Under the pieces are notes generated by a model. The model did not search any database, was not told the DNA's origin, and saw only the letters and a list, made by a program, of their open reading frames with translations. From Congeria kusceri (Eukaryota; Mollusca; Bivalvia; Myida; Dreissenidae), in NCBI GenBank assembly GCA_027627225.1, contig CM051030.1, forward strand, positions 5,557,001 through 5,621,000: a stretch of 64,000 nucleotides of DNA, read 5' to 3'. Below, piece by piece: positions 6,591-64,000 of the stretch; within the stretch, counting starts at the first letter, position 1, and the number at the start of each line of letters is the position of its first letter. The translations under genes were made by a program, and so were the position numbers.

Positions 6591-6689
6591 GTTATTGCCC
6601 TATGACTAATAGATTCATATGTCATTACGTACCCATATTGCCCTTAGTATTAACATTTATACAAATAGTGTCGTTACCTTACCATATTG

Positions 6690-9600
6690 CCACTAGTACT
6701 AATAGATTCATGTGTCATTACGTAGCCATAGGTTGCCCTTAGTGTTAACATTTATACAAATAGTGTCGTTACCTTACCATATTGCCACTAGTACTAATAG
6801 ATTCATGTGTCATTACGTACCCATATTGCCATTAGTATTAACATTTATTCAAATAGTGTCGATACCTTACCATATTGCCACTAGTACTAATAGATTCATG
6901 TGTCATTACGAACCCATATTGCCATTAGTATTAACATTTATATAATAGTGTCGTTACCTTACCATATTGCCACTAGTACTAATAGATTCATGTGTCATTA
7001 CGTACCCATATTGCCATTAGTATTAACATTTATACAAATAGTGTCGTTACCTTACCATATTGCCACTAGTACTAATAGATTCATGTGTCATTACGTACCC
7101 ATATTGCCCTCAGTGTTAACAATTATATAAATAGTGTCGTTACCTTACTATATTGCCACTAGTACTAATAGATTCATGTGTCATTACGTACCCATATTGC
7201 CCTTAGTGTTAACATTTATACAAATAGTGTCGTTACCTTACCATATTGCCACTAGTACTAATAGATTCATGTGTCATTACGTACCCATATTGCCATTAGA
7301 ATTAACATTTATACAAATAGTGTCGTTATCTTACCATATTGCCACTAGTACTAATAGATTCATGTGTCATTACGTACCCATATTGCCCTTAGTGTTAACA
7401 TGTATACAAATAGTGTCGTTACCTTGCCATATTGCCACTCGTACTAATAGATTCATGTGTCATTACCTAGCCATATATTGCCCTTAGTGTTAAAATTTAT
7501 ATAAATAGTGTCGTTACCTTACCATATTGCCACTCGTACTAATAGATTCATGTGTCATTACGTACCCATATATTGCCCTTAGTATTAAAATTTATATAAA
7601 TAGTGTCGTTACCTTACCATATTGCCACTAGTACTAATAGATTCATGTGTCATTACGTACCCATATTGCCCTTGGTGTTAACATTTATACAAATAGTGTC
7701 GTTACCTTACCATATTGCCACTAGTACTAATAGATTCATGTGTCATTACGTACCCATATTGCCATTAGTGTTAACATTTATACAAATAGTGTCGTTACCT
7801 TACCATATTGCCACTAGTACTAATAGATTCATGTGTCATTACGTACCCATATATTGCCCTTGGTGTTAACATTTATACAAATAGTGTCGTTACCTTACCA
7901 TATTGCCACTAGTACTAATAGATTCATGTGTCATTACGTACCCATATATTGCCCTTAGTGTTAACATTTATACAAATAGTGTCGTTACCTTACCATATTG
8001 CCACTAGTACTAATAGATATATGTGTCATTACGTACCCATATTGCCCTTAGTATTACCATTTATACAAATAGTGTCGTTACCTTACCATATTGCCACTAG
8101 TACTAATAGATTCATGTGTCATTACGTACCCATATTGCCCTTAGTATTAAAATTTATACAAATAGTGTCGTTACCTTACCATAATGACACTAGTACTAAT
8201 AGATTCATGTGTCATTACGTAGCCATATATTGCCCTTAGTGTTAACATTTATACAAATAGTGTCGTTACCTTACCATATTGCCACTAGTACTAATAGATT
8301 TATGTGTCATTACGTAGCCATATATTGCCCGTAGTGTTAACATTTATACAGATAGTGTCGTTACCTTACCATATTGTCACTAGTACTAATAGATTCATGT
8401 GTCATTACTTACCCATATTGCCCTTGATGTTAACATTTATACAAATAGTGTCGTTTCCTTACCATATTGCCACTAGTACTAATAGATTCATGTGACATTA
8501 TGTACCCATATATTGCCCTTAGTGTTAACTTTTATACAAATAGTGTCGTTACCTTACCATATTGCCACTAGTACTAATAGATTCATGTGTCATTACGTAC
8601 CCATATTGCCCTTAGTATTAACATTTATACAAATAGTGTCGTTGCCTTACCATATTGCCACTAGTACTAATAGATTCATGTGTTATTACGTAGCCATATA
8701 TTGCCCTCAGTGTTAACATTTATAAAGATAGTGTCGTTACCTTACCATATTGCCACTAGTACTAATAGATTCTTGTGCCATTACGTAGCCATATATTGCC
8801 CTTAGTGTTAACATTTATACAGATAGTGTCGTTACCTTACCATATTGCCACTAATACTAATAGATTCATGTGTCACTACTTACCCATATTGCCCTTAGTG
8901 TTAACATTTATACAAATTGTGTCGTTTCCTTACCATATTGCCACTAGTACTAATAGATTCATGTGTCATTACGTACCCATATATTGCCCTTAGTGTTAAC
9001 AATTATACAAATAGTGTCGTTACCTTACCATATTGCCACTAGTACTAATAGATTCATGTGTCATTACGTAGCCATAGGTTGCCCTTAGTGTTAACATTTA
9101 TACAAATAGTGTCGTTACCTTACCATATTGCCACTAGTACTAATAGATTCATGTGTCATTACGTACCCATATTGCCATTAGTATTAACATTTATTCAAAT
9201 AGTGTCGATACCTTACCATATTGCCACTAGTACTAATAGATTCATGTGTCATTACGAACCCATATTGCCATTAGTATTAACATTTATATAATAGTGTCGT
9301 TACCTTACCATATTGCCACTAGTACTAATAGATTCATGTGTCATTACGTACCCATATTGCCATTAGTATTAACATTTATACAAATAGTGTCGTTACCTTA
9401 CCATATTGCCACTAGTACTAATAGATTCATGTGTCATTACGTACCCATATTGCCCTTAGTGTTAACAATTATACAAATAGTGTCGTTACCTTACTATATT
9501 GCCACTAGTACTAATAGATTCATGTGTCATTACGTACCCATATTGCCCTTAGTGTTAACATTTATACAAATAGTGTCGTTACCTTACCATATTGCCACTA

Positions 9601-11475
9601 GTACTAATAGATTCATGTGTCATTACGTACCCATATTGCCATTAGAATTAACATTTATACAAATAGTGTCGTTATCTTACCATATTGCCACTAGTACTAA
9701 TAGATTCATGTGTCATTACGTACCCATATTGCCCTTAGTGTTAACATGTATACAAATAGTGTCGTTACCTTGCCATATTGCCACTCGTACTAATAGATTC
9801 ATGTGTCATTACCTAGCCATATATTGCCCTTAGTGTTAAAATTTATATAAATAGTGTCGTTACCTTACCATATTGCCACTCGTACTAATAGATTCATGTG
9901 TCATTACGTACCCATATATTGCCCTTAGTATTAAAATTTATATAAATAGTGTCGTTACCTTACCATATTGCCACTAGTACTAATAGATTCATGTGTCATT
10001 ACGTACCCATATTGCCCTTGGTGTTAACATTTATACAAATAGTGTCGTTACCTTACCATATTGCCACTAGTACTAATAGATTCATGTGTCATTACGTACC
10101 CATATTGCCATTAGTGTTAACATTTATACAAATAGTGTCGTTACCTTACCATATTGCCACTAGTACTAATAGATTCATGTGTCATTACGTACCCATATAT
10201 TGCCCTTGGTGTTAACATTTATACAAATAGTGTCGTTACCGTACCATATTGCCACTAGTACTAATAGATTCATGTGTCATTACGTACCCATATATTGCCC
10301 TTAGTGTTAACATTTATACAAATAGTGTCGTTACCTTACCATATTGCCACTAGTACTAATAGATATATGTGTCATTACGTACCCATATTGCCCTTAGTAT
10401 TACCATTTATACAAATAGTGTCGTTACCTTACCATATTGCCACTAGTACTAATAGATTCATGTGTCATTACGTACCCATATTGCCCTTAGTATTAAAATT
10501 TATACAAATAGTGTCGTTACCTTACCATAATGACACTAGTACTAATAGATTCATGTGTCATTACGTAGCCATATATTGCCCTTAGTGTTAACATTTATAC
10601 AAATAGTGTCGTTACCTTACCATATTGCCACTAGTACTAATAGATTTATGTGTCATTACGTAGCCATATATTGCCCTTAGTGTTAACATTTATAAAGATA
10701 GTGCCGTTACCTTACCATATTGCCACTAGTACTAATAGATTCTTGTGCCATTACGTAGCCATATATTGCCCGTAGTGTTAACATTTATACAGATAGTGTC
10801 GTTACCTTACCATATTGTCACTAGTACTGATAGATTCATGTGTCATTACTTACCCATATTGCCCTTGATGTTAACATTTATACAAATAGTGTCGTTTCCT
10901 TACCATATTGCCACTAGTACTAATAGATTCATGTGACATTATGTACCCATATATTGCCCTTAGTGTTAACTTTTATACAAATAGTGTCGTTACCTTACCA
11001 TATTGCCACTAGTACTAATAGATTCATGTGTCATTACGTACCCATATTGCCCTTAGTATTAACATTTATACAAATAGTGTCGTTGCCTTACCATATTGCC
11101 ACTAGTACTAATAGATTCATGTGTTATTACGTAGCCATATATTGCCCTCAGTGTTAACATTTATAAAGATAGTGTCGTTACCTTACCATATTGCCACTAG
11201 TACTAATAGATTCTTGTGCCATTACGTAGCCATATATTGCCCTTAGTGTTAACATTTATACAGATAGTGTCGTTACCTTACCATATTGCCACTAATACTA
11301 ATAGATTCATGTGTCACTACTTACCCATATTGCCCTTAGTGTTAACATTTATACAAATTGTGTCGTTTCCTTACCATATTGCCACTGGTACTAATAGATT
11401 CATGTGTCATTACGTACCCATATATTGCCCTTAGTGTTAACAATTATACAAATAGTGTCGTTACCTTACCATATT
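6690..11475. repeat. Tandem duplication of a ~2.35-kb block inside the satellite
   Basis: Variant units recur in the same order at an offset of exactly 2346 bp: 6712 and 9058, 6900 and 9246, 7603 and 9949, 7928 and 10274. From 8304/10745 onward the offset becomes 2441, so the right copy has gained one 95-bp unit near 10650-10745. Rare private variants such as 'GATATATGTGTC' are shared by the two copies. Confidence 0.9.
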
Positions 11476-14400
11476 GCCACTAGTACTAATAGATTCATGT
11501 GTCATTACGTACCCATATTGCCGTTAGTATTAACATTTATACAAATAGTGTCGTTACCTTACCATATTACCACTAGTACTAATAGATTCATGTGTCATTA
11601 CGTAGCCATATATTACCCGTAGTGTTAACATTTATAAAGATATTGTCATTACCTTACCATATTGCCACTAGTACTAATAGATTCTTGTGCCATTACGTAG
11701 CCATATATTGGCCGTAGTGTTAACATTTATACAGATAGTGTCGTTACCTTACCATATTGTCACTAGTACTAATAGATTCATGTGTCATTACTTACCCATA
11801 TTGCCCTTCGTGTTAACATTTATACAAATAGTGTCGTTTTCTTACCATATTGCCACTAGTACTAATAGATTCATGTGTCATTACGTACCCATATATTGCC
11901 CTTAGTGTTAACATTTATACAAACAGTGTCGTTACCTTGCCATATTGCCACTAGTACTAATAGATTCATGTGTCATTACGTACCCATATATTGCCCTTAG
12001 TGTTAACATTTATAAAGATAGTGTCGTTACCTTACCATATTGCCACTAGTACTAATAGATTCTTGTGCCATTACGTAGCCATATATTGCCCTTAGTGTTA
12101 ACATTTATACAGATAGTGTCGTTACCTTACCATATTGTCACTAGTACTAATAGATTCATGTGTCATTACTTACCCATATTGCCCTTAGTGTTAACATTTG
12201 TACAGATAGTGTCGTTTCCTTACCATATTGCCACTAGTACTAATAGATTCATGTGTCATTACGTACCCATATATTGCCCTTAGTGTTAACATTTATACAA
12301 ATGGTGTCGTTACCTTACCATATTGCCACTAGTACTAATAGATTCATGTGTCATTACGTACCCATATTGCCCTTAGTATTAACATTTATACAAATAGTGT
12401 CGTTACCTTACCATATTACCACTAGTACTAATAGATTCATGTGTCATTACGTAGCCATATATTACCCGTAGTGTTAACATTTATAAAGATAGTGTCATTA
12501 CCTTACCATATTGCCACTAATACTAATAGATTCTTGTGCCATTACGTAGCCATATATTGCCCGTAGTGTTAACATTTATACAGATGGTGTCGTTACCTTA
12601 CCATATTGTCACTAGTACTAATAGATTCATGTGTCATTACTTACCCATATTGCCCTTAGTGTTAACATTTATACAAATAGTGTCGTTTCCTTACCATATT
12701 GCCACTAGTACTAATAGATTCATGTGTCATTACGTACCCATATATTGCCCTTAGTGTTAACATTTATACAAATAGTGCCGTTACCTTACCATATTGCCAC
12801 TAGTACTAATAGATTCATGTGTCATTACGTAGCCATATATTGCCCTTAGTGTTAACATTTATAAAGATAGTGTCGTTACCTTACCATATTGCCACTAGTA
12901 CTAATAGATTCTTGTGCCATTACGTAGCCATATATTGCCCTTAGTGTTAACATTTATACAGATAGTGTCGTTACCTTACCATATTGTCACTAGTACTAAT
13001 AGATTCATGTGTCATTACTTACCCATATTGCCCTTAGTGTTAACATTTGTACAGATAGTGTCGTTTCCTTACCATATTGCCACTAGTACTAATAGATTCA
13101 TGTGTCATTACGTACCCATATATTGCCCTTAGTGTTAACATTTATACAAATAGTGTCGTTACCTTACCATATTGCCACTAGTACTAATAGATTCATGTGT
13201 CATTACGTACCCATATTGCCCTTAGTATTAACATTTATACAAATAGTGTCGTTACCTTACCATATTACCACTAGTACTAATAGATTCATGTGTCATTGCG
13301 TAGCCATATATTGCCCGTAGTGTTAACATTTATAAAGATAGTGTCATTACCTTACCATATTGCAACTAGTACTAATAGATTCTTGTGCCATTACGTAGCC
13401 ATATATTGCCCGTAGTGTTAACATTTATACAGATAGTGTCGTTTCCTTACCATATTGTCACTAGTACTAATAGATTCATGTGTCATTACTTACCCATATT
13501 TCCCTTAGTGTTAACATTTATACAAATAGTGTCGTTTCCTTACCATATTGCCACTAGTACTAATAGATTCATGTGTCATTACGTACCCATATATTGCCCT
13601 TAGTGTTAACATTTATACAAATAGTGTCGTTACCTTACCATATTGCCACTAGTACTAATAGATTCACGTGTCATTACGTAGCCATATATTGCCCTTAGTG
13701 TTAACATTTATAAAGATAGTGTCGTTACCTTACCATATTGCCACTAGTACTAATAGATTCTTGTGCCATTACGTAGCCATATATTGCCCTTAGTGTTAAC
13801 ATTTATACAGATAGTGTCGTTACCTTACCATATTGTCACTAGTACTAATAGATTCATGTGTCATTATTTACCCATATTGCCCTTAGTGTTAACATTTATA
13901 CAAATAGTGTCGTTTCCTTACCATATTGCCACTAGTACTAATAGATTCATGTGTCATTACGTACCCATATATTGCCCTTAGTGTTAACATTTATACAAAT
14001 AGTGTCGTTACCTTACCATATTGCCACTAGTACTAATAGATTCATGTGTCATTACGTACCCATATTGCCCTTAGTATTAACATTTATACAAATAGTTTCG
14101 TTGCCTTACCATATTGCCACTAGTACTAATAGATTCATGTGTCATTACGTAGCCATATATTGCCGTTAGTGTTAACATTTTTAAAGATAGTGTCGTTACC
14201 TTACCATATTGCCACTAGTACTAATAGATTCTTGTGCCATTACGTTGCCATATATTGCCCTTAGTGTTAACATTTATACAGATAGTGTCGTTACCTTACC
14301 ATATTGCCACTAGTACTAATAGACTCATGTGTCATTACTTACGCATATTGCCCTTAGTGTTAACATTTATACAAATTGTGTCGTTTCCTTACCATATTGC

Positions 14401-14611
14401 CACTAGTACTAATAGATTCATGTGTCATTACGTACCCATATTGCCCTTAGTGTTAACATTTATACAAATAGTGTCGTTACCTTACCATATTGCCACTAGT
14501 ACTAATAGATTCATGTGTCATTACGTACCCATATATTGCCCTTAGTGATAACATTTATACAAATAGTGTCGTTACCTTACCATATTGCCACTAGTACTAA
14601 TAGATTCATGT
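11216..14611. repeat. 849-bp higher-order repeat, about 4 copies
   Basis: The same ordered set of variant units recurs at an offset of 849 bp: 11216, 12065, 12914 and 13763; 11404, 12253, 13102 and 13951; 11687, 12536, 13385 and 14234. This is nine ~94-bp units amplified as a block, built from the right part of the 2.35-kb block. Confidence 0.9.
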
Positions 14612-15699
14612 GCCATTACGTAGCCATATATTGCCCTTGGTATTAACATTTATACAAATAGTGTCGTTACCTTACCATATTGCCACTCGTACTAATAGAT
14701 TCATGTGTCATTACGTACCCATATATTGCCCTTAGTGTTAACATTTATACAAATAGTGTCGTTACCTTACCATATTGCCACTAGTACTAATAGATTCATG
14801 TGTCATTACGTACCCATATTGCCCTTGGTGTTAACATTCATACAAATAGCGTCGTTACCTTACCATATTGCCACTAGTACTAATAGATTCATGTGTCATT
14901 ACGTACCCATATTGCCCTTAGTGTTACCATTTATACAAATAGTGTCGTTACCTTACCATATTGCCACTAGTACTAATAGATTCATGTGTCATTATGTACC
15001 CATATTGCCCTTGGTGTTAACATTTATTCAAATAGTGTCGTTTCCTTACCATATTGCCACTAGTACTAATAGATATATGTGTCATTACGTACCCATATTG
15101 CCATTATTATTAACATTTATACAAATAGTGTCGTTACCTTACCATATTGCCACTAGTACTAATAGATTCTTGTGCCATTACGTAGCCATATATTGCCCTT
15201 AGTGTTAACATTTATACAGGTAGTGTCGTTACCTTACCATATTGCCACTAGTACTAATAGATTCATGTGTCATTACTTACCCATATTGCCCTTAGTGTTA
15301 ACATTTATACAAATAGTGTCGTTTCCTTACCATATTGCCACTAGTACTAATAGATTTATGTGTCATTAGTGCCCATAGTATTAACATAAATACAAATAGC
15401 TCTACATGTGTCATTACCTTACCATATTTTTCCTTATCGTTACCTATACATATGTCGTTACATAACAATAATAGTTCGCTCTGTGTTATCCACGGACTTT
15501 CCACACATATAATCCAGGGTAATCCAGGACGGTTTTCTCACGACGCGCCACATTTGTATGTAGGCTTGTATTTGCTGTGCGGGTGTCTGTATATGTTTAG
15601 CAAAGGAAGGACAAAATATAATTTAAAAAAAAAACAATATTGGCTTTAGGTATCGTTGTAAATATTAAACAGATATATAAGTTCAATATTTTGTTTAAT

Positions 15700-24353: not shown

Positions 24354-37514
<13,161 letters not shown>

Positions 37515-45233: not shown

Positions 45234-45330
45234 CTACATATGCTCGGGGTGGTCACGCAGACAATTAATGAACTGTTTAGGATCCATCTCTCTCTGACAT
45301 ATACGGTAGATAGCCGTAAACAGCGGAAAC
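45234..45330 (-). CDS. GPD1: GPD1 exon 9 (stop)
   Basis: Acceptor 'TATAACAG'. Encodes [19 protein letters not shown] and [12 protein letters not shown], then TAG at 45236-45234. The C-terminal HPEHM is diagnostic of animal GPD1. Confidence 0.95.
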
Positions 45331-48300: not shown

Positions 48301-51300
48301 TGATTTATGACATGTACATTCTGCTCTTCCACTCTAATAACACTGGTTAATCCGAACATATTTTAAATGCAATTTTGAAGTTGCGTCTGTGTCTAAAAGT
48401 ACCACGGAGCCAATTAGAGTTGGACAACCAGTTATTGAAGGGAGAATGTCAAAATGCAGAAAAACTTGCTCATGGGCAAGTGGATAGCAAAATTTTAGCA
48501 TAATCACTGATCAAAGATAGCACTTGTCAAGCAGCAGATTTTCAGTTACATCTCGTTTGGACTACGTTTCTTTCTTTCAAACTCAGAGAAGATATATCTA
48601 AAATCATAGGTGTCCAAAATCAAAACCTTATTTCCTATAATGTCTTATCAAAATGATGACCATTTATGTTTTGTACATTTTGTTGCAATAACACGAAGAC
48701 ATTGACACTATGGCTCTAGATATCAAAACATGCGTCACCGTAAGCGAGAAATACGTATTTATAATCACCTGTTAGGCCTAAAATTCAATATTGTTTGTTT
48801 CCCAAAAAGAAAAACCAAACAGTTGTCAAAGGGAGAACATGAAAGTTTTAAACTTCAATACAGCGTCAAGATGCACAGGTTATTTTTTCTCTCAGCCTTT
48901 AATATAGAATGTGGGATTATTTCACTCAGCCTATATGAATTATTTCCCTCAGTCTATACCTTTAGTCTATATTAAATATTTCCCTCGGTCTATATCAATT
49001 ACTTACCTCAGTCTATATAAATTACGCCATTTCAATCTATTCCCGGTAACATGTGTGGGTTATTTCCCTTAGCCTATACACAGTATGCCATTTCAATCCG
49101 TTATGTGTTATTTCCCTCAGCCTTCCCTGTAAAATGTGTGGGTTATTTCCCTTAGCCTATACACAGTATGCCATTTCAATCCGGTATGCGTTATTTCCCT
49201 CAGCCTTCCCTGTAACATGTGTGGGTTATTTCCCTTAGCCTATACACAGTATGCCATTTCATGTATGGGTTATTTCCCTCAGCCTATACACAGTATGCCA
49301 TTTCAATCCTGTATGCATTATTTCCCTTAGCCTATACACAGTATGCCATTTCATGTATGGGTTATTTCCCTCAGCCTATACACAGTATGCCATTTCAATC
49401 CTGTATGCATTATTTCCCTTAGCCTATACACAGTATGCCATTTCAATCCTGTATGCGTTATTTCCCTTAGCCTACACACTTTATGCCATTTCAATCCTGT
49501 ATGGGGTACTTCCCTTAGCCTATACACAGTATGCCATTTCAATCCTGTATGGGGTACTTCCCTTAGCCTATACACAGTATGCCATTTCAATCCTGTATGG
49601 GTACTTCCCTTAGCCTATACACATTATGCCATTTCAATCCTGTATGGGTTATTTCCCTCAGCCTATACACAGTATGCCATTTCAATCCTGTATGGGGTAC
49701 TTCCCTTAGCCTATACACATTATGCCATTTCAATCCTGTATGGGTTATTTCCCTCAGCCTATACACAGTATGCCATTTCAATCCTGTATGGGGTACTTCC
49801 CTTAGCCTATACACATTATGCCATTTCAATCCTGTATGGGTTATTTCCCTCAGCCTATACACAGCATGCCATTTCAATCCTGTACGGGCTATTTCCCTTA
49901 GCCTACACACTTTATGCCATTTCAATCCTGTATGGGCTATTTCCCGTAACCAATACACAGTATGCCATTTCAATCCTGTATGGGTTATTTCCCTTAGCCT
50001 ATACACAGTATGCCATTTCAATCCTGTATGCGTTATTTCCCTTAGCCTACACACATTATGCCATTTTAATCCTGTATGGGGTACTTCCCTTGGCCTATAC
50101 ACATTATGCCATTTCAATACTGTATGGGGTATTTCCCTTAACCTATACACATATTGCCATTTCAATCCTGTATGCGTTATTTCCCTTAACCTATACACAT
50201 TATGCCATTTCATGTATGGGTAATTTCCCTTTGCCTGTACACATTGCGCCACTTCAATCCTGAATAAGTTATTTCCCTAAGCCTATATAAATTACACCAA
50301 TCAATCCCCTACAACAGAGACATTCTACCCACCTTGTCTGACTTGATGACAGATTCCCCGAGCAGCCGGTTCCTACCGCCATGACAGGTGGCAACTAGGT
50401 CAGCTATACCACAGCTCTCGAAGAAAGTGTCTTCTTTACATCCTGTACAGTAAAACATATATGGTAGACGTTTCTGCAATTGTCAATAGTTACAAATCAG
50501 TTTAGTATTTTATCCAAATCATTGTACTCAAATATTACGTGTTCAATGGGTACCAGTAATCTATTTTACACAAAAGAGGAAGTGGAAAAGCTCATGTGTG
50601 TGATTATGGAAATACTTTTGGGAAGAGTAAACACCACTAATAAAGAATGTGTGAGTTCATTATTTTCTGTCGCTGATACCCGAAAGTTCTTAAGAATAAC
50701 TGACTTAAGTTCACTATTTCATCAATCAAAATTAACATTTTAAACTTTACAAATCATAATATTGTTTATTTTGATTATCAGACAGAAAATTTTCATTTAA
50801 TTTAGGAAAAATGTCTCCACAATGTTATTTATGCTCACTTCTTACAATATGAAAATCATGAGCTTAAGCTAATCCTGTTATAGAATACTTAAGAATTTTT
50901 TTCAGAAATCGCGGCCAGTACCTAAATTATGAGCTTAAAGTCAAGAGTTTACGAAAGATGTTAATGGAACACAGACCCAGTGCTTGAATATTCATTCCGA
51001 TCAAGGAGGCAGAAGTACCTTGTATAAATCTCTCTCCAAAAGCCACCATTTCTTCCCTCGTATAAATCTCACTCCAAAAGCCACCATTTCTTCCCTCGTA
51101 TAAATCTCTCTCCAAAAGCCACCATTTTTTCCCTTGTATAAATCTCACTCCAAAAGCTACCATTTCTTACCTTGTATAAATCTCACTCCAAAAGCCACCA
51201 TTTCTTACCTTGTATAAATCTCACTCCAAAAACCACCATTTCTTCCCTTGTATAAATCTCACTCCAATTCTTACCTTGTATAAATCTCTCTCCAAAATCC

Positions 51301-54300
51301 ACCATTTCTTACCTTGTATAAATCTCACTCCAAAAGCCACCATTGCTTACCTTGTATAAATCTCTCTCCAAAAGCCACCATTACATACCTTGTATAAATC
51401 TCTCCAAAAGACACCATTTCTCACCTTGTATAAATCTCTCTCCAAAAGCCACCATTTTTCACCTTGTATAAATCTCACTCCAAAAGCCACCATTTCTTAC
51501 CTTGTATAAATCTTACTCCGAAAGCCACCATTTCTTACCTTGTATAAATCTCACTCCGAAAGCCACCATTTCTTACATTGTATAAATCTCACCCAAAAAG
51601 CCACCATTTCTTACCTTTTATAAATCTCACTCCAAAATCCACCATTTTTAAGCCACAATTTCTTACCTTGTATAAATCTCACTCCGAAAGCCACCATTTC
51701 TTACCATGTATTAATCTCACTCCAAAAGCCACCATTTCTTACCTTGCATAAATCTCACTCCAAAAGCCACCATTGCTTACCTTGTATAAATCTCACTCCA
51801 AAAGCCACCATTTCTTACCTTGTATAAATCTCACTCCAAAAGCCACCATTGCTTACCTTGTATAAATCTCTCTCCAAAAGCCACCATTGCATACCTTGTA
51901 TAAATCTCTCCAAAAGCCACCATTTCTCACCTTGTATAAATCTCTCTCAAAAAGCCACCATTTCTCACCTTGTATAAATTTCACTCCAAAAGCCACCATT
52001 TCTTACCTTGTATAAATCTCACTCCGAAAGCCACCATTTCTTACGTTGTATAAATCTCACCCAAAAAGCCACCATTTCTTACCTTTTATAAATCTCACTC
52101 CAAAATCCACCATTTCTAAGCCACCATTTCTTACCTTGTATAAATCTCACTCCGAAAGCCACCATTTCTTACCATGTATAAATCTCACTCCGAAAGCTAC
52201 CATTTCTTACCTTGTATAAATCTCACCCCAAAGCCACCATTTCTTACCTTGTATAAATCTCACTCCAAAATCCACCATTGCTTTACCTTGTATAAATCTC
52301 ACTCCAAAAGCCACCATTGCTTACCTTGTATAAATCTCACTTCAAAAGCCACCATTTCTTACCTTGTATAAATCTGTTTCCAAAAGCCACCATTTCCATA
52401 AGCCCAAGTCTCAGCACCGCAGCCTTGGTGTTGTGTCCCAGACCCATACCGTCCACAATGCCAGCTCCGATTGCAACCACGTTCTAAAAATTGAAACACA
52501 TATAAAATGTTTAACTGTGTATTTTATAGGCCTAGCAAGTCTATAATAATGTTAGGTGTATGTTTTTCTATATGTTTTCAACATAATCAGATAATTAATG
52601 TAGACAATGTTTTGCAAAAATTGAAAATGTTTGAGAAGTGTGTTACAGAACTATTTTTATTGCAGATATAATTATCTTCTTACAGTAATTTACTCAAATA
52701 TGTAATTAACTTTTAACAATGTTGTAATAGATTTTTAGCCCAAATGGTTACAGTTTTTTTTTATACAATAATCGAACATAAAATGTAACTAACTAAATAG
52801 GATAATGCCAGATAGTTAAAGTATGCCAACCGATACATTTCAAATATTGCTAAAGACTGTGTTCATCAAACAATATTTCACTTTCCATGCACATACGTTT
52901 TAGGCCCCACACATTTTATTGATTTCCATGTCAATAATTAACTGATTAATATTAATGGTAGTGTAGGGATTTGCCAGACTAAAAAAATGGCAGGGGGTCC
53001 TGAAAAAGGGCAGGGGGGCCTTTTCGCAAAAAGAGCAGGGTTATAATAATTATATATATGTACCTGAACAATGCAAGCACTATCGATAGAGCATTAATGA
53101 ATTCGCGTTTTAGGTGAAATGTTAAGGGTATCAAAAGAATCAGACAGGTGTTTTGTTGCATGGGATAAAATGGATATCTAAACGAGAGTGACGAAATATA
53201 CACATATTGGACTTAAACTGGAGATTCTGTACAGCATAAAACTTATTGAATATTAAAATGGATTAATGTGTTTTTGCACGCAAGGTAATTATGTATGCAT
53301 ATCGGAAATTTAGTTTGCATTGATAACGTTTTTAAGAAAGTAAATTATTATAATAAATAGAAAATTCCAGAACACCAACAACAATAACATGGATAAAATT
53401 TGGTAAAATAACATAATTAGACATTAACAAACATCAACTGCAAACAATCCTTTACAGAAGCACCGCAATCGGCACTAAATTACCATTAATTCGGTAACTG
53501 ATAATTGATGTCGATTGGTCATGACGAGCTGATTAATGATACATGTCGCGACAAGACGTCAAAGATCATTTAGGCCATGGTGTGTTTGCCAAGATGCGCA
53601 AGTAACTAATTAAATTGCGGTAGGGCGTGTCTGTGCTGACAAAAGGGACACAGAAGGGCGGGCTAATTCTTAAAAGGGCGGAGGGAAAAGGCAAGAGGGC
53701 GGGGCTAAAAAATGGAAGGGCGGGCCGCCCTGCCATTCCACTCTAGCTAAATCCCTATAGTGGTATGTTTACTGTCTTATTCGGACCTCATATTTAAACT
53801 TACACCAATAACCCCAGAATAAATGGAATGCTGTGTAAACTGAAAACTGAACAATAATACATTACATACCTTTAAGGCACCGCACATTTCAATGGTTTCC
53901 ACATCAAGTACCACTGAGGTCCTGAAGAACGGCTTCTCAAACAACATCTTCAACAGGTCTCCTTGTTCCGGCTTTTTGACACCTGAAAATTATAAAGAAT
54001 TAATTTTTTTAGCAAGAATTAGTACAGCATTCTAAATAACACAAATGCCCGAAGCCCTGGACAAGTCCCGGTAAACATTTTATTACCCGTAATAACTGTC
54101 TGCTCGAAGGGCGAAGTATAAGAATGATAAATATGAAAAAAAAAAGAATCCATTAACAACATTTTTAATAATTCAGAGATTAGCATCTTTTGTGTTTCAA
54201 GCTATAGTAGATGGCATCTTATACTTGTGGCTTTTTGGGGTCTTCACAATCAGAAATATGTTTCACAACTATGGCTAATAAACTTAAACAATCTGCTGGA

Positions 54301-57300: not shown

Positions 57301-60300
57301 TTACAACTTATTATTGGAATAATTATTCCAGGTACACCATCTACTCCCTTCAACTTTGCACATTGTGTGATTATGATACGAAAATCAGTACTCCAGCTCC
57401 TGTGAACCTCTCAGCATTCGGTAGCAGAAAACAAGTTTTCCTGCCTTTTCGATCCCAAGCCGGTTCCTTAGATTGGACTGTATATGGCTGAAGTTTGAAA
57501 ACACTCTTTCAACTGAAGCAGAACTTGCGGGCAGTTTTTGTAGTCTAATCATTAGATCAACAAATCCTGGCAGAAAGTTTGAATTGTTCACAGCCTTCCA
57601 CCAAACACAGCTATCCATGCTTGTTGCCGAAGTCGTCCAGAAAGAGGATGGATATGGTTCAGCCTGGGCCTCAAAGCTGATGACTGAGGAGATGTAACAC
57701 TCGTTTTTCTGTGTGATCCAATTTCTTGCAATTTCTTTTTGTTTATCACTAAGATGTGCACCTTTGTATTTTGGATGAAGAAGATATGCTGCCAAATGGA
57801 ACAGCTGAAGGGCTTGATTCATTCTACTATTAATGACATCTTTGTGCTCAGTCAGATCTGGGTGGTGAAGTAGAGTGAACCAAGCATCGCAGGCATCAGC
57901 AGCATTGGCAGAGTCACCCTGAATGCGATCTAACATTTCAGATATTGGTCGCATTTGTTTGTGGAGATCTTTTGCCTGCTGGTACAAATTGAAATCATTA
58001 ACTTTCCTTGCTATGTTGGAGTCAGTAGAGTCACCATGTTCCTGAGTAATTCCTATCATGAACTCTCTGTTTCTCAGAAATGTATCAAGACAGGTCAGTT
58101 GACTGTTCCACCTTGTGTCCCCAGGCAGCTGGGGCTTTACACTCCCTTCACATTCACCCAGCCATGAGCTGGGCTGGTGGTGATTTCTGAAGTATTTTTG
58201 CACTTCAACATGTTTCATTACAGATGATGGTGTAATATCTTGTCCTAGCAAATTCAGTAAATGGGCATTACATCCATACACAAGCAAGTCATTGTCTTCC
58301 TCATGAAGAAGCCGTCGCATTTTTTCCATGTTCTTGGCGTTATCTGTCACAATATTCTTTACTGTACATCCATATAAAGACGATGCCTTTTTGATGGATT
58401 CTTTACACATATCCTGGAGGTTTTCCCCTGTTTTGCTTGTTGCTCCTGTTGACTTGGCATCAATGAAGAATGCTTTCTTATCAACATGGACACACGTAGC
58501 CGTCACAGGATCATTATGGCAGTCACTCCAGCCATCTTCAATAAGAGTACAGTCTTTGCCTTCAATTTGTGCCTTTACCTGCAACTGTAGCTCTTCTGTG
58601 ACAGAATCAAGTAGTGGTCCCGACAGTTTCTTTCTTGTTGGTGGCTTGTATACAGGTCGCAGAGTGGACACAAAAGTTTTAAATGAATCATGCTCACTCA
58701 CTGAGAATGGTATGTTACATGCAAAGAAGAACTTGGCTAAAAGTAAGTCCAGCTTTAATTTGGTTTCTTCCGATGTCACAAACACTTGGTTATTCAAGTC
58801 GGTTTGAATTCTTTTCTTTGGAGCTGGAGCACTGCTTGTCTCAGTTTCCAGGCCATGATTTTCTTCTGCAGAGCGTTTTAATTCAAATGAAACTACCTCA
58901 CTGCATGTCTTCTGGTGTTTTCTCATACGCTCTGCTTTGTTGCTTTGCTCATGACCACACTTCTTGCAACGGGCAAGAGTCTTTCCATCTTTTTCTACCT
59001 TGTTGAAAAAGTCCCATACTGGGTCTTTATTTCTTCCTCCTCTTGTTGACATAATTATTGTAGATCTATATGCAAGTGATGAAGGTACATGTAGTTATAG
59101 TGAGTGAATTCAGAAACCCAATGGTTGTCTTACAATGGCTTAGAAGAATATAAACCCATGAAAATGACACAAGCAACTCTATGATAGGCCAAAAGGACAT
59201 GCCCATTAATGTTAAGTGCCAGATGAATGCCTAACACACAACTACAATCCAATGTGGTGCATGCTCTGAAATTTCAGTACCTGTTTGTTCTGGAACCCAT
59301 TAATTGTTCCCCTGAGGAACATTCCAGTGATTAGCAGCCCCATTAGCTAGCCCCAGTATCCCCAGTTCAATAATAAAGAGGCCATTATCACCTGAGTTGG
59401 ATTTTGTTCTCCTGTTTTTTGCTGCATAACAGGTGTCTTGACTCAGACATGGCATTCAAGTCAAATGTCTGTCTTCTCCTTTCCCCCACTTAATATGAAC
59501 ACCAGGTGCATATATAAACACATTGAACCCTATCTCATTAAATTTAAACTGTATTTGTTTGTTGTTGTGTTTTTTTATATTAATTTTATACATAAATTAT
59601 TTTGGTTTTTGCCACCCAGTTTTTTCCTTGCCGGTTTTTTCCGGTTTTTACCATGGTTTTTTCCACTCATGGCAAAAACCTGACAACCCTGCATATATAT
59701 CTTGCAAAAGCAACATGCTGATAGTAGTAGCTTTAGTTAATAAAGCACTCTCAAGCGTATATTGCTTTAGTTTTCTTTAAAGATATTGTTTTTATCGTCT
59801 TAAAATATTTCTTGCAAAAAAATAAGTGGCCAGTAATAGTTTGTCCGGGCCAGTAATATTTGGGGCATTACCGGTCCTCGTGGCCAGTAATAAATTCACG
59901 ACTTTCGCGGAGACTGTATTATTTATAGAAATTTTTACTTGCTAAAACTGTTGCACATGTATGTTTGAATCTCTATAATGTCCTTCAAAATAACTTAATT
60001 TTCATTTTAGGTGAAACAAACTATGGATTTGTAGTGACTGGGTTTAGCAACACAGGTAAAACATTTGTAAGTCCTGGACTGGGTTCCCAATTTTCATGCC
60101 CTGTGAGTGTGACATTATGTAAAATACTTATAAAGTAAAGCTGGGAGGAAAAGTGCGCCCGATGCAGGGCTGAATGCAGACTACCGTAACACTAGCATAG
60201 CACTCTACAATCTGAGCTAACCGGGCGTCTGGTTCTTACCCACGCATACTACACTCTTCCTTCCATTAACCTTTTAGGCCGATCCCATGCACTCTTGCCG

Positions 60301-60499
60301 TGTACTTCTTATACCATTAAAGTGTAATCATTCACATTAACGATTACAATTAAATTATTCATAATCAATAGAAATTAGAATTGGGTCATTTATTAGACCA
60401 GTTGTATCGATAAAATTAAAAAACAAACATTTCAAACATCATTATTTAATACACTTACCAATTTCCTGACCCAACGATGCACACCCTCTTCTTCGACAT
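45234..60499 (-). CDS. GPD1: Cytosolic glycerol-3-phosphate dehydrogenase [NAD+], 9 exons
   Basis: Coding exons are 60499-60459, 56784-56604, 56163-56023, 54914-54773, 53982-53870, 52483-52363, 50442-50333, 45972-45866 and 45330-45234. All are GT-AG and in phase, giving 350 residues (vertebrate GPD1 is 349). It converts dihydroxyacetone phosphate and NADH to glycerol-3-phosphate and NAD+ in the cytosol, linking glycolysis to lipid synthesis and the glycerophosphate shuttle. I see the dinucleotide-binding GSGNWG (10-15), VMPHQFV, the SLIKG lysine (121), [15 protein letters not shown], the CGALKN lysine (206), [19 protein letters not shown] and the classic C-terminal DHPEHM. No signal peptide is present, which fits the cytosolic enzyme. 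Its introns are loaded with repeats and nested transposons, and three donor junctions (exons 4, 5 and 6) have copies in the following introns. Confidence 0.97.
45355..45485. repeat. ~36-bp repeats in GPD1 intron 8
   Basis: 'TTAGTTCATTTTAAAATAGG' followed by 'TTACTT' recurs about four times with small changes. Confidence 0.7.
45866..45972 (-). CDS. GPD1: GPD1 exon 8
   Basis: Acceptor 'TCCTTCAG', donor 'GAAAG|GTGATT'. Encodes [35 protein letters not shown]. Phase fits exon 9 ([10 protein letters not shown]). Confidence 0.94.
46085..48209 (+). mobile_element. Second hairpin-ended element family, long copy with tandem core
   Basis: It begins 'AACTAGAAATGTGTCCACAG' plus 'ACACGGATGC', the same terminus as the minus-strand copy at 44552. 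It ends at a strong hairpin 'ATGCCCCCCATCATTGATGG' / 'TGGGGGCAT' (48179-48207). Between about 46440 and 48110 are nine to ten ~160-bp units with 'GGACCTAGGGACCTGGTTCT', 'GACACACCGTCTCACCATGC' and 'GACCTTTAAGTGTGACCTTG'. It lies in GPD1 intron 7. That the two termini belong to one element is an inference. Confidence 0.65.
48210..48885. other. GPD1 intron 7, no feature seen
   Basis: AT-rich sequence between the inserted element and the 48-bp array. The open frame at 48730-48975 runs into the array and has no coding character. Confidence 0.5.
48890..50300. repeat. ~48-bp minisatellite in GPD1 intron 7, ~28 copies
   Basis: The unit is 'TATGGGTTATTTCCCTTAGC' plus 'CTATACACAGTATGCCATTT' and 'CAATCCTG'. 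The left edge is diverged, the middle is homogeneous, and its right edge lies about 35 bases from exon 7. Since 48 is 16 codons it opens frames on both strands (plus 49343-50263, minus 49587-50252), which are by-products. Confidence 0.92.
50333..50442 (-). CDS. GPD1: GPD1 exon 7
   Basis: Acceptor 'TGTACAG', donor 'CAAG|GTGGGT'. Encodes [29 protein letters not shown] and SVIKSDK, the conserved substrate-site block. Confidence 0.95.
50443..51015. other. GPD1 intron 6, unique part
   Basis: No feature seen. The open frame at 50480-50743 lies in intron and shows no family signature. Confidence 0.5.
51016..52385 (-). repeat. 38-bp array made of the GPD1 exon 6 donor junction, ~36 copies
   Basis: Read on the sense (minus) strand each unit is 'ATGGTGGCTTTTGGAGTGAG' followed by 'ATTTATACAAG|GTAAGAA'. 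That is the last 31 bases of exon 6 ([10 protein letters not shown]) plus the splice donor. The unit abutting exon 6 is the real exon end; the others lie downstream in intron 6. Many copies keep a GT donor (CAAGGTAAG, CAAGGTATG, CAAGGTGAG) while some have lost it (CAAGGGAAG, CGAGGGAAG). With a 38-base period only every third donor would keep the frame. Confidence 0.93.
52363..52483 (-). CDS. GPD1: GPD1 exon 6
   Basis: Acceptor 'TTTTTAG'. Encodes [31 protein letters not shown] and VAFGNRFIQ. The first donor 'CAAG|GTAAGA' at 52362-52361 keeps the frame into exon 7 (giving [12 protein letters not shown]). About 36 copies of this exon end and donor follow directly downstream, so alternative donor use is possible. 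Confidence 0.93.
52484..52890. other. GPD1 intron 5, unique part
   Basis: AT-rich, no feature seen between exon 6 and the decayed exon 5 junction copy. Confidence 0.5.
52891..52934 (-). repeat. Decayed copy of the GPD1 exon 5 donor junction
   Basis: On the minus strand 44 bases match the end of exon 5 and the first intron bases at 35 of 44 positions, without gaps. The exon has 'GAAATGTGCGGTGCCTTAAA' and the copy 'AAAATGTGTGGGGCCTAAAA', both followed by GTATGT after one base. A stop codon now lies in the exon-derived part. The transposon at 52964-53757 later widened the gap to the source exon. Confidence 0.65.
52964..53757. mobile_element. MITE-like DNA transposon with TAGTG target duplication
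   Basis: The ends are inverted: 'TAGGGATTTGCCAGAC' on the left and, in reverse complement, 'TAGGGATTTAGCTAGAGTGG' on the right, each followed by an 'AATGGCAGGG' block. The direct repeat TAGTG flanks it at 52959-52963 and 53758-53762. The interior carries G-rich 'AAGGGCGGG' blocks and no coding capacity. It sits in GPD1 intron 5. Confidence 0.75.
53870..53982 (-). CDS. GPD1: GPD1 exon 5
   Basis: Acceptor 'TTTTCAG', donor 'AAAG|GTATGT'. Encodes [37 protein letters not shown], ending on the conserved Lys. A decayed copy of its end plus donor lies at 52891-52934. Confidence 0.95.
54629..54653 (-). repeat. Copy of the GPD1 exon 4 donor junction in intron 4
   Basis: The plus-strand string 'GGTAGATTCGCAGA' with near-identical flanks occurs at the end of exon 4 (54779-54792) and again at 54637-54650. 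On the sense strand the copy reads TCTGCGAATCTACCTAAG|GTATTC against TCTGCGAATCTACCATAG|GTACCG. It therefore carries the exon end together with a GT donor, about 140 bases downstream. Confidence 0.65.
54773..54914 (-). CDS. GPD1: GPD1 exon 4
   Basis: Acceptor 'GTGGCAG', donor 'ATAG|GTACCG'. Encodes [17 protein letters not shown] and [18 protein letters not shown]. The last ~22 bases and the donor recur at 54629-54653. Confidence 0.95.
54950..55615. other. GPD1 intron 3, no element seen
   Basis: Mostly unique sequence. A 24-base unit with 'AGGAGGAGATTAAAAGATTA' is duplicated near 55395-55445. No exon fits between exons 3 and 4. Confidence 0.5.
55619..55996. mobile_element. hAT-type MITE in GPD1 intron 3
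   Basis: The termini are inverted: 'CAGGGTGGCCACTGAC' and, from the right, 'CAGGGTTGCCACTGAAAT'. Subterminal 'TCAGGGAATTTTAC' and 'CAGGGAAA' copies occur at both ends. CAGGG termini fit the hAT superfamily. An 8-bp target duplication is not recognisable in the AT-rich flanks. It ends 27 bases from the exon 3 donor. Confidence 0.75.
56023..56163 (-). CDS. GPD1: GPD1 exon 3
   Basis: Acceptor 'ATTTCAG', donor 'CAAG|GTAAGC'. Encodes [27 protein letters not shown] and the SLIK lysine, 47 codons in phase 0. A hAT-type MITE begins only 27 bases into the following intron. Confidence 0.95.
56604..56784 (-). CDS. GPD1: GPD1 exon 2
   Basis: Acceptor 'TTTTCAG', donor 'GTG|GTATGC'. Encodes [42 protein letters not shown] and LPENV. 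Confidence 0.95.
57108..59691 (-). mobile_element. Complete-looking autonomous hAT transposon
   Basis: The termini CAGGGTTG and CAACCCTG bound a 2584-bp element. Both subterminal regions are rich in 'TTTTTCCGG', 'GGCAAAAA' and 'CCGGCAAAAA' motifs in opposite orientation, the sort of repeats a hAT transposase binds. It holds one intact 555-codon transposase gene. The flanks are AT-rich (ATATTATA and CATATATA), so a clean 8-bp target duplication cannot be called. Confidence 0.85.
57385..59052 (-). CDS. hAT-family transposase with BED zinc finger
   Basis: 555 codons, single exon, no stops. An N-terminal BED finger has Trp13, C29-x2-C32, H46 and C50. The RNase H-like core shows Asp173 in EDGWSD and Asp237 in IVTDNAKN, followed by the hAT-specific CNAHLLNLL (C261, H264) and the DTRWNSQL motif. 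The C-terminal hAT dimerisation segment has [16 protein letters not shown] and [14 protein letters not shown]. The third acidic catalytic residue was not pinned down. The protein would cut and reinsert the element by recognising its ends. It sits inside GPD1 intron 1 in the same orientation. An intact frame with terminal repeats still present suggests a recent insertion, not a domesticated host gene. Confidence 0.93.
   Translation of the reverse strand: MSTRGGRNKDPVWDFFNKVEKDGKTLARCKKCGHEQSNKAERMRKHQKTCSEVVSFELKRSAEENHGLETETSSAPAPKKRIQTDLNNQVFVTSEETKLKLDLLLAKFFFACNIPFSVSEHDSFKTFVSTLRPVYKPPTRKKLSGPLLDSVTEELQLQVKAQIEGKDCTLIEDGWSDCHNDPVTATCVHVDKKAFFIDAKSTGATSKTGENLQDMCKESIKKASSLYGCTVKNIVTDNAKNMEKMRRLLHEEDNDLLVYGCNAHLLNLLGQDITPSSVMKHVEVQKYFRNHHQPSSWLGECEGSVKPQLPGDTRWNSQLTCLDTFLRNREFMIGITQEHGDSTDSNIARKVNDFNLYQQAKDLHKQMRPISEMLDRIQGDSANAADACDAWFTLLHHPDLTEHKDVINSRMNQALQLFHLAAYLLHPKYKGAHLSDKQKEIARNWITQKNECYISSVISFEAQAEPYPSSFWTTSATSMDSCVWWKAVNNSNFLPGFVDLMIRLQKLPASSASVERVFSNFSHIQSNLRNRLGIEKAGKLVFCYRMLRGSQELEY
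60060..60231 (-). mobile_element. tRNA-derived SINE in GPD1 intron 1
   Basis: The minus-strand head (about 60158-60231) reads 'GCCCGGTTAGCTCAGATTGT' then 'AGAGTGCTATGCTAG', with an A box and a weakened B box. It is followed by 'GGGCGCACTTTTCCTCCCAG' and a body. The arms do not pair as a functional tRNA would. Confidence 0.6.
60459..60499 (-). CDS. GPD1: GPD1 exon 1
   Basis: Encodes [13 protein letters not shown] plus two bases of the following Trp codon. Donor 'TTG|GTAAGT'. The split of the GxGxxG loop by an intron is clear because exon 2 continues with GSAIARIVG. Confidence 0.93.
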
Positions 60500-62598: not shown

Positions 62599-63509
62599 CT
62601 GAAACGAAACAAACATATTCCTTACTTTTAGATCTATAACATGACCACTATTTTTTAGAGGCTACACTATTGGGCATAACACTAATATTACTTCATAAAT
62701 GTCTAGTATCTTAATTTAATTGTTCAAGTTTTGTTTGGAGGCAATGCTTTAAATAAGTAAGTGGTATTAAAGAATAATTGCTTAGCAAATCTCAAGCTGT
62801 GTGGACAGCCAAAAAGTAAATTTTCACAAGCAGATTAAAATCTTATATTGTAAATTTGTATGAAGTTATGCGTAATAATGTTTGACAACTGTTCATTTAG
62901 TTCTCAAGAAATAATTTAACAAATGCTATTTACAGTTCATATTTGAACACTTAAAGTCACTAAATGTTATAATAAAGTTAAAACAATGTGTACTTATTGT
63001 TTAAGAATTTTTTTCTAACATTGTGGATTTGATATTTTTATAGCACAAAAACAAATCGATAGGCAAATTTTAAGAAAATAGGTTGCAATGTACAACGTCT
63101 CTCCAGATACTGTAAATGTGTTGTTGTATTTGGTTGATGAATAACAGAAGATCTCAAGTATAAATACAAAATGTCCCATAGCAAATGTACATACAATACA
63201 TTTATGATTTTGTTAAAACCATAAGCCGTTTTACTTCTATAATACATAAAGAGCTTTTAAATGCTTTTAAACTGCAGAATGTTTGTTTAATGTGTTGTTG
63301 TTGTGTTGTTGTTTTTTCTTTTCTTTTAAAAAGAGCTTGAAAAGAAATCTAACACAACAATTTAAGTAATTACCTGGTCATTTCACTGTTGATTTTCACC
63401 TGTCGCGGCACATTGGCCCACGGCATATTGTGCTTTAGGGGTTCCTTCTGGGTCCACCATCCGTAACAGTGGCTGTTGGTCACTGGGTAGTTAAACATCT
63501 GGTAGGTTT
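62550..63509 (-). CDS. TEX49/SPMIP11-like sperm microtubule inner protein, last two exons (partial)
   Basis: Exon 63509-63374 (acceptor TTTCAG, donor ACCAG|GTAATT) joins exon 62598-62550 (acceptor TTTCAG, stop TAA 62552-62550) in phase. Together they give 59 C-terminal residues: TYQMFNYPVTNSHCYGWWTQ, KEPLKHNMPWANVPRQVK, INSEMTRFVDQMALTNREF and TLF. The spacing of WW, MPW, PR, MTRF(x)D and the R-x-F-x-L end agrees with what I recall of vertebrate TEX49 (SPMIP11), a protein of the doublet microtubule lumen in sperm flagella. That link is from memory, without a search. The N-terminal part lies beyond the window end or upstream in the repeat-rich intron. The exon pair itself is well supported by splice sites and phase. 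Confidence 0.6.
62599..63373. other. Intron of the TEX49-like gene, no feature seen
   Basis: AT-rich with short T- and TTG-rich tracts near 63290-63330. No further exon recognised. Confidence 0.5.
63374..63509 (-). CDS. TEX49-like penultimate exon
   Basis: 136 bp, beginning 'AAACCTACCAGATG' after acceptor 'AATTTCAG'. This acceptor and the first exon bases are repeated in the upstream array, so the true start could in principle shift by choice of acceptor. Confidence 0.65.
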
Positions 63510-64000
63510 CTGAAATTGAATTGTAATGACTGAAAAGCTGGTAGGTTTTCTGAAAGTGAATAACAATGACTGAATAGCTGGTAGGTTTTCTGAAAGTGAA
63601 TAACAATGACTGAAATGCTGGTAGGTTTTGTTAAAGTGAATTGCAATGACTGAAAAGCTGGTAGGTTTTCTTAAAGTGAATTGCAATGACTGAAAAGCTG
63701 GTAGGATTCTGAAAATGAATTGCAATAAATGAAAAGCTGGTAGGTTTTTGAACGTGAATTGCAATAAATGAAAAGCTGGTAGGTTTCTGAACGTGAATTG
63801 CAATAAATGAAAAAGTTGGTAGCTTTTCTGAAAGTGAATTGCAATAAATGAAAAGCTGGTGGGTTTTCTGAAAGTGAATTGCAATAAATTAAAAGCTGGA
63901 AGGTTTCTGACAGTGAATTATAATAAATGAACATCTGGTAGGTTTTTGAAAGTAAATTATTGTGCTTGAACATCTGGTGCAAGTAGGTTTATGAAAGTGA
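63510..64000 (-). repeat. ~40-bp array copying the TEX49-like exon's splice acceptor
   Basis: Sense (minus) units read 'TTCACTTTCAGAAAACCTAC' then 'CAGCTTTTCATTGCAA'. They contain a C/T-rich tract, CAG and the exon's opening 'AAACCTACCAG'. The distal copies near 63930 and 63970 keep 'ACCAGATGTTCA', which matches the exon start 'ACCAGATGTTTA' further. About 12 copies are present and the array runs off the window end. Confidence 0.85.

Follow-up and report, generated by a model that had tools for sequence, protein, structure and literature searches.

In the bivalve Congeria kusceri, exon 6 of the cytosolic GPD1 gene passes directly into a tandem array built from its own splice-donor junction. 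The gene lies in a 64,000-nucleotide stretch of contig CM051030.1 (assembly GCA_027627225.1, positions 5,557,001 to 5,621,000; hereafter the window, to which coordinates refer), where exon 6 (52483-52363, minus strand) is followed by 35 in-phase copies of the exon-intron junction (52361-51018). These head-to-tail units make up about the first 1345 bases of intron 6 and, together with the exon copy, bring the number of junctions to 36. The explanation that we consider likely is a neutral minisatellite derived from the junction, the copies of which would be spliced out as intron with the exon-adjacent donor in use, and which is one of a class of such arrays in this genome.

The Donor-Junction Array of GPD1 Exon 6

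The GPD1 gene is complete in the window on the minus strand, with nine exons between 60499 and 45234 that are bounded by GT/AG splice sites and join into one intact frame of 350 amino acids (aa). Its product is 89% identical to that of Dreissena polymorpha, the closest among the 120 listed of 4109 protein matches; it matches the solved cytoplasmic GPD1 structures 6e8y and 1x0v over its whole length, and both halves of the GPD enzyme are found in it by Pfam. The first-pass annotation, made from the sequence alone, had assigned the junction to exon 6, and this nine-exon model confirms the number. The features on which the argument rests are as follows.

60459..60499, minus strand: GPD1 exon 1, with the ATG (gene model)
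52363..52483, minus strand: GPD1 exon 6, 121 bp; its final 34 bases, 52396-52363, form copy 0 of the array (gene model, frame intact; matched in a protein search of the animal's own genome)
52361..52362, minus strand: frame-keeping donor GT (AAG/GTAAGA, the slash marking the junction), alone among the 36 donors in yielding the 350-aa protein
52337..52339, minus strand: in-frame TGA in unit 1, which ends every later-donor reading (all 35 extra donors lead to 254 aa; coordinates counted by hand)
51018..52361, minus strand: array of 35 junction copies, consensus TAAGAAATGGTGGCTTTTGGAGTGAGATTTATACAAGG (repeat calls, unit split and consensus match; one place found in the genome search described below)
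51018..51246, minus strand: distal stretch holding the four junctions without GT (junction survey)
51018..51055, minus strand: u35, the unit at the far end, more like the exon than any other full-length unit (33/35 bases) and with the Glu codon GAG (unit comparison)
50333..50442, minus strand: GPD1 exon 7, acceptor of intron 6 (gene model)
45234..45330, minus strand: GPD1 exon 9, with the stop (gene model)

Tandem Repeats Finder reports the region as two 38-bp arrays, at 51016-51647 and 51650-52396, and the units were split by a shared anchor. A length of 38 bp is kept by 28 of the 35 units, the others measuring 28, 36, 36, 37, 39, 52, and 52 bp; head-to-tail units of this size lie within the range of about 10-100 bp by which minisatellites are recognized. 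In phase with the exon, the unit consists of the last 34 bases of exon 6 plus GTAA, so that each copy carries an exon edge together with its splice site and the exon itself is copy 0. The exon-junction 38-mer is identical to the unit consensus at 32/38 positions, while 20,000 shuffled versions of the exon piece (single-base shuffling, one phase) gave a mean of 11.2 and a maximum of 23 matches, and the best other match to the consensus in the window, in any phase and on both strands, reached 25/38. The differences between exon and consensus amount to two triplets, ATG against TAA at the seam and AAC against GTG inside, and the seam triplet marks the join between older exon sequence and the copied beginning of the intron.

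The units differ among themselves and show a higher-order pattern of about 12 units. In the 1.55-Gb genome of the animal, the array DNA was found at this place only, by a search that skips very common words, and a dispersed or mobile-element minisatellite was rejected on the strength of this single match. Overall, the array is where the first-pass annotation had seen it, as about 36 tandem copies of the exon 6 end at 51016..52385 (35 units plus the exon copy), and the comparison of the units with exon 6 against shuffled sequence bears out its kinship with the exon. The description of the unit as "exactly" the last 31 exon bases plus GTAAGAA needs amending: the 31+7 division is another phase of the same period, and the consensus departs from the exon at three adjacent bases (AAC vs GTG) that had been entered as an "x" in the peptide.

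The Extra Donors and Their Reading Frame

GT is present at 32/36 junctions including the real donor, hence at 31/35 extra junctions, and the four that are without it all fall among the last seven, after 51247, 51133, 51095, and 51057. The 9-mer at the junction is identical to that of the real donor at 15/35 extra junctions, and pairing with the 5′ end of U1 reaches the real donor's value of -9.5 kcal/mol or better at 22/35. Intron 6 thus opens with dozens of candidate 5′ splice sites, some of which keep GT and some of which do not, as the first-pass annotation had noticed.

The protein that these sites could yield is another matter. The same annotation proposed that every third donor would keep the frame and add 38 residues each time, since three 38-bp units make 114 bases. 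Not one of the 35 extra donors maintains an open frame: because of the in-frame TGA in unit 1, all of them, the 31 with GT included, yield one identical truncated reading of 254 aa, in which the last 103 GPD1 residues are lost and seven foreign residues stand at the end. Messages with such an early stop are probably sent to decay. To judge from the reading frames, the effect on the gene, if there is any, is expected to be truncation or loss of messenger RNA (mRNA), not a series of protein variants.

Origin and History of the Array

Comparison with other species identifies the source of the repeat. The residues MEM occur in all 22 aligned GPD1 rows (the query and 21 of the 120 matches listed), and MEMVAFG is exact in three of the 21 relatives, among them Dreissena polymorpha (MEMVAFGELFIKG). 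As the GPD1 proteins of relatives carry the segment, the array was copied from the exon and not the other way round, and the proposed origin from the exon 6/intron 6 junction is sustained both by this and by the in-phase match of 32 bases in 38.

The array also appears to hold an earlier state of the exon. Residue 242 of GPD1 is Glu in 17/22 aligned sequences and Asn (AAC) in the present exon; the corresponding codon in the units is GAG (Glu) in 9/35, GTG in 25/35, GTA in 1/35, and AAC in none. The far-end unit u35 has GAG and is the nearest to the exon, with 33/35 bases, among the 28 full-length units that were ranked (the seven of other length being excluded). With GAG in nine units and Glu in 17 of the 22 sequences, the array looks like a fossil of an older exon. 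The simplest account of these codons would be that the junction was copied while the exon still coded for Glu, that GTG arose and spread within the array, and that the exon changed later, although back-changes of some units from GTG to GAG offer a possible alternative history.

The intron itself is older than the array. In a paralogue on the same contig the exon ends at the same intron position (...FCEVFYH G/GT, read by eye), and there is no array there; the shared position without the repeat places the intron first. At its far end, the array reads AAG/GTACTT, with a U1 energy of -5.6 compared to -9.5 for the present donor. On the premise that this far flank is the old intron start, the duplication may have strengthened the donor, which is only a lead.

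Junction Arrays at Other Genes

SPMIP11, the next gene upstream of GPD1, presents the mirror case, with an array of acceptor-junction copies before its exon 2 (63509). CFAP276 was considered as the identity of this neighbor and ruled out, as Pfam gives SPMIP11.

63374..63509, minus strand: SPMIP11 exon 2, the start of which (AAACCTACCAG) is the last copy of the acceptor-junction array (Pfam and protein matches)
63510..64000, minus strand: SPMIP11 acceptor-junction array of 39-40-bp units, running beyond the window edge to L016:2932 and split by an insertion (repeat calls and extended locus)

Counting the real one, the array holds 30 acceptor copies (L016:1510-2932), half of which have AG (15/30) and half of which lack it (15/30); among the 15 AG copies, the 144-aa protein results solely from the one next to the exon. 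The insertion, at about L016:2081-2355, is some 275 bp long, has inverted ends (GGCCCTGTGTTCAC... / ...GTGAACACGGGGCC), and looks by eye like a small DNA transposon.

Junction-derived arrays, in which the unit contains the exon edge, were found at 5/89 exons sampled from the same genome by profile search. The families were hand-picked, and the arrays were distributed over adh_short (0/19), myosin-head (4/40), and kinesin (1/30) exons. The sample took in 19/19 adh_short matches, 40/82 myosin-head matches (the 30 best and 10 picked from the rest), and 30/125 kinesin matches near the top of the list, from which duplicates and some others were omitted; several of the loci are nearly identical to each other, and exon ends are the ends of the profile matches. 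For the arrays in this sample, the reading frame served to position the splice sites by eye, the flanks considered being 1500, 400, and 250 bases long, and the copy counts below include the real site.

L043: donor array (...GACTACTG/GTAAGAT), 8 copies, GT in 5/8
L052: donor array (...CTTGAGAAG/GTCTG) at a myosin exon, 32 approximate copies (L052:1657-3095)
L074: donor array (...GAGTGTAAG/GTAAGACC), 4 copies
L055: acceptor array (...CGCAG/CTTTGAGCAG), 22 copies
L104: acceptor array (...TTTACAG/CAAGAAGACC), about 8 copies

Read-through past the real donor meets an immediate stop in L043 and a stop after 10 codons in L074, and is open for 44 codons in L052, so that an in-frame extension is possible in the last of these genes. 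In the myosin array at L043:1696-2378, next to an exon reading NEEKQ, the second E is replaced by a stop in 6/7 extra units, the far-end unit keeping the exon codon (by eye), which makes this array a possible second exon fossil. Two further loci, L069 and L038, have arrays near an exon edge, not across it.

The idea that exon edges are hot spots for such repeats was rejected. For arrays with a period of at least 20 and a score of at least 100, 6/178 edges touch an array compared to 12.0 expected from random flank positions, and one of the six, at L106, has by eye no junction in its unit. Arrays cover 7.3% of the sampled flanks and 0.8% of the exon matches, the window being far richer at 41%. 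It seems that they can originate at any place, and that an exon edge tolerates them provided that one good splice site is left beside the exon body. Should junction arrays prove as frequent as this small and hand-picked sample implies, spurious exons and spurious alternative splice forms can be expected in the annotation of genomes of this kind.

Splice-Site Choice and Alternative Explanations

All eight GPD1 introns are at least 440 bp long, which is in the range where exons, not introns, get recognized first. We envisage a tandem duplication of the exon 6 end together with the adjoining start of intron 6, followed by expansion within the intron to about 35 copies; the copy attached to the exon body would still serve as the genuine end of the exon. 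With long introns on its two sides (1386 bp, and 1920 bp for intron 6), exon 6 would be recognized as a block, its acceptor pairing with the nearest donor; the true donor would win, and the array copies would therefore be removed as intron. A later donor, if used, would lead to the stop in unit 1 and probably to mRNA decay, so that the array would be tolerated, drift neutrally, and retain older exon sequence as a fossil.

Work on paired donors supports this preference for the nearest site. Five minigenes that offered a pair of identical donors, with introns of 365 bases, were spliced at the upstream one exclusively (Carranza and colleagues, PMC9225289; cited here, as are the other PMC articles, from partial text). 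Under exon definition, human alternative donors that are close in strength likewise show an upstream bias, and the abstract states the cross-exon logic for donors and acceptors alike (PMC9225289). The minigenes resemble GPD1 in having identical donors in tandem after one exon, and long introns (PMC9225289). Extended to the present arrays, this proximity rule would predict that the 52363 donor beats its 35 copies and that the last acceptor wins in acceptor arrays. In GPD1 and SPMIP11 the predicted winners coincide with the frame-keeping sites, and the fact that just one of the 36 GPD1 donors keeps the protein agrees with the neutral explanation.

Several observations weigh against it. The minigene study concerns two designed donors in transfected cells and GPD1 36 natural donors in a bivalve; in its human set without a strength filter, about 60% of events favored the downstream donor, and in larger constructs weakened donors caused the exon to be skipped (all within the text cited; PMC9225289). 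Moreover, the decoys have not decayed, since most of them still bear GT (31/35) and equal or exceed the real donor in U1 pairing (22/35), and decay might be expected if they were harmful. Their preservation could be explained by recent homogenization, or by usefulness. Finally, the 44 open codons of the L052 myosin read-through mean that a dead end at every copy is not universal.

The best-placed alternative is one that we regard as improbable while giving it some weight: some splicing at later donors, all ending at the same stop, would make GPD1 output fall in proportion to array length and vary between alleles. The wealth of extra junctions with GT (31/35), 15 of them with the real donor's 9-mer, is in keeping with such a poison-donor dial, and a 38-bp intronic variable number tandem repeat (VNTR) of human TERT, with 24-66.5 copies, affects splicing and mRNA decay (PMC11830802). 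The TERT array differs, however, in that G-quadruplexes are proposed for it and in that it lies about 3.5 kb upstream of exon 7 (PMC11830802), and under exon definition the first donor is expected to be used almost exclusively (PMC9225289). A wider version, which we would rate as a similarly outside prospect, is that ladders of donors or acceptors at several per cent of exons form a large class, that genes are still expressed in spite of them owing to the choice of the exon-adjacent site under exon definition, and that slight leakage turns array length into a heritable mRNA-decay dial for ordinary genes, GPD1 among them.

A further proposal, very unlikely in our estimation, takes the units as joined acceptors and donors (ACAAG/GTAAG) that remove the intron stepwise, or as U1 sites that shield the transcript from early cleavage. 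Recursive splice sites consist of a strong acceptor, with a pyrimidine tract and YAG, joined directly to a donor. In the unit consensus AG does directly precede GT, but the units read TTTATACAAG/GTAAG, with A at -3 and no clear pyrimidine tract, and so lack the recursive motif. Intron 6 is only 1.9 kb long, and the exon-proximal 154 bases show no RNA structure beyond that of shuffled sequence (-21.8 kcal/mol vs -22.8 ± 2.9 for 100 single-base shuffles).

Still less credible is an assembly artifact, or a dispersed satellite or mobile-element repeat that came to lie beside the exon by chance. Arrays are common here, tandem repeats occupying 41% of the window; against both versions stand the single place found in the genome, the phase shared with the exon, the exon's own code in the units, and similarly built, independent arrays at other genes, and differing units with a pattern of about 12 are unlike a simple assembly loop. 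The proposal of in-frame 38-residue additions is refuted for this haplotype by the TGA in unit 1, by the 0/35 extra donors giving an extended full-length protein, and by the 7/35 units that are not 38 bp long.

Other Features of the Window and Genome

The nearest proteins to those of the window are from Dreissena polymorpha, at 89% (GPD1) and 94%. Intron 1 of GPD1 contains, at 57388-59052 (minus strand), an open 555-aa frame with DUF659 and hAT dimerization domains, a hAT transposase without internal stops. A 48-bp array of 22.6 copies at 49218-50287 starts about 45 bp behind the exon 7 donor; an exon-derived origin was rejected for it by eye. On a contig other than C7, the locus L011 (G000:C492:26028-26516) encodes a GPD whose matched part is free of stops (376-aa open frame), with a bacterial-type C-terminal domain match; it would be either a contaminant or a transfer.

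Two very large arrays lie elsewhere in the window. That at 6593-15382 has periods of 188, 283, and 471 over 8.8 kb, and that at 30953-36296 has a 99-bp unit over 5.3 kb, with one minus-strand frame stop-free over the whole length, 99 being a multiple of three. The probable first exon of a carboxylesterase-family gene is at 37287-37514 (minus strand).

Comparison With Known Systems

In the open-licence PubMed Central literature, covered mostly as titles and abstract openings, no description of a class of splice-junction-derived arrays was found. The closest relatives concern the birth of introns. Tandem duplication of exonic segments that bear AGGT is a recognized route to new introns (the Rogers model, with ATP2A1 as an example; PMC4974935). 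Repeated 24-bp exonic segments occur in fission yeast SPOG_01682 and SOCG_00815, and the SPOG_01682 intron spans four copies (PMC4974935). As in these cases, a short AG/GT segment has been duplicated in tandem in GPD1 (CAAG/GTAAG in the consensus), and the extra copies lie within an intron. The Rogers-type cases create a new intron, whereas that of GPD1 existed beforehand, with the paralogue intron at the same position, and an existing donor junction was copied to 35 units; unlike them as described in PMC4974935, the present genome also has acceptor arrays. In potato RdRp the duplicated segment straddles a splice junction, as in GPD1, but there a single duplication across the intron-exon boundary gave a new intron and inserted exonic sequence, without an array (PMC4974935).

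The TERT repeat, VNTR6-1 of intron 6, is likewise a 38-bp intronic minisatellite with tens of copies, and one that affects splicing; an exon-end origin, as in the GPD1 array, is not stated for it in the text cited (PMC11830802). The equal period and intron number of the two look coincidental.

With 4 to 36 near-perfect donors or acceptors per exon, the arrays of C. kusceri amount to experiments of nature in which the spliceosome has to select among equivalent sites, and they seem to store fossil exon copies, by which exon changes could be polarized within one genome. The GPD1 array, with site numbers far beyond the two of the published minigenes, would put the exon-centric proximity rule to the test; we regard it as belonging to a group of probably neutral splice-junction minisatellites that this genome contains.

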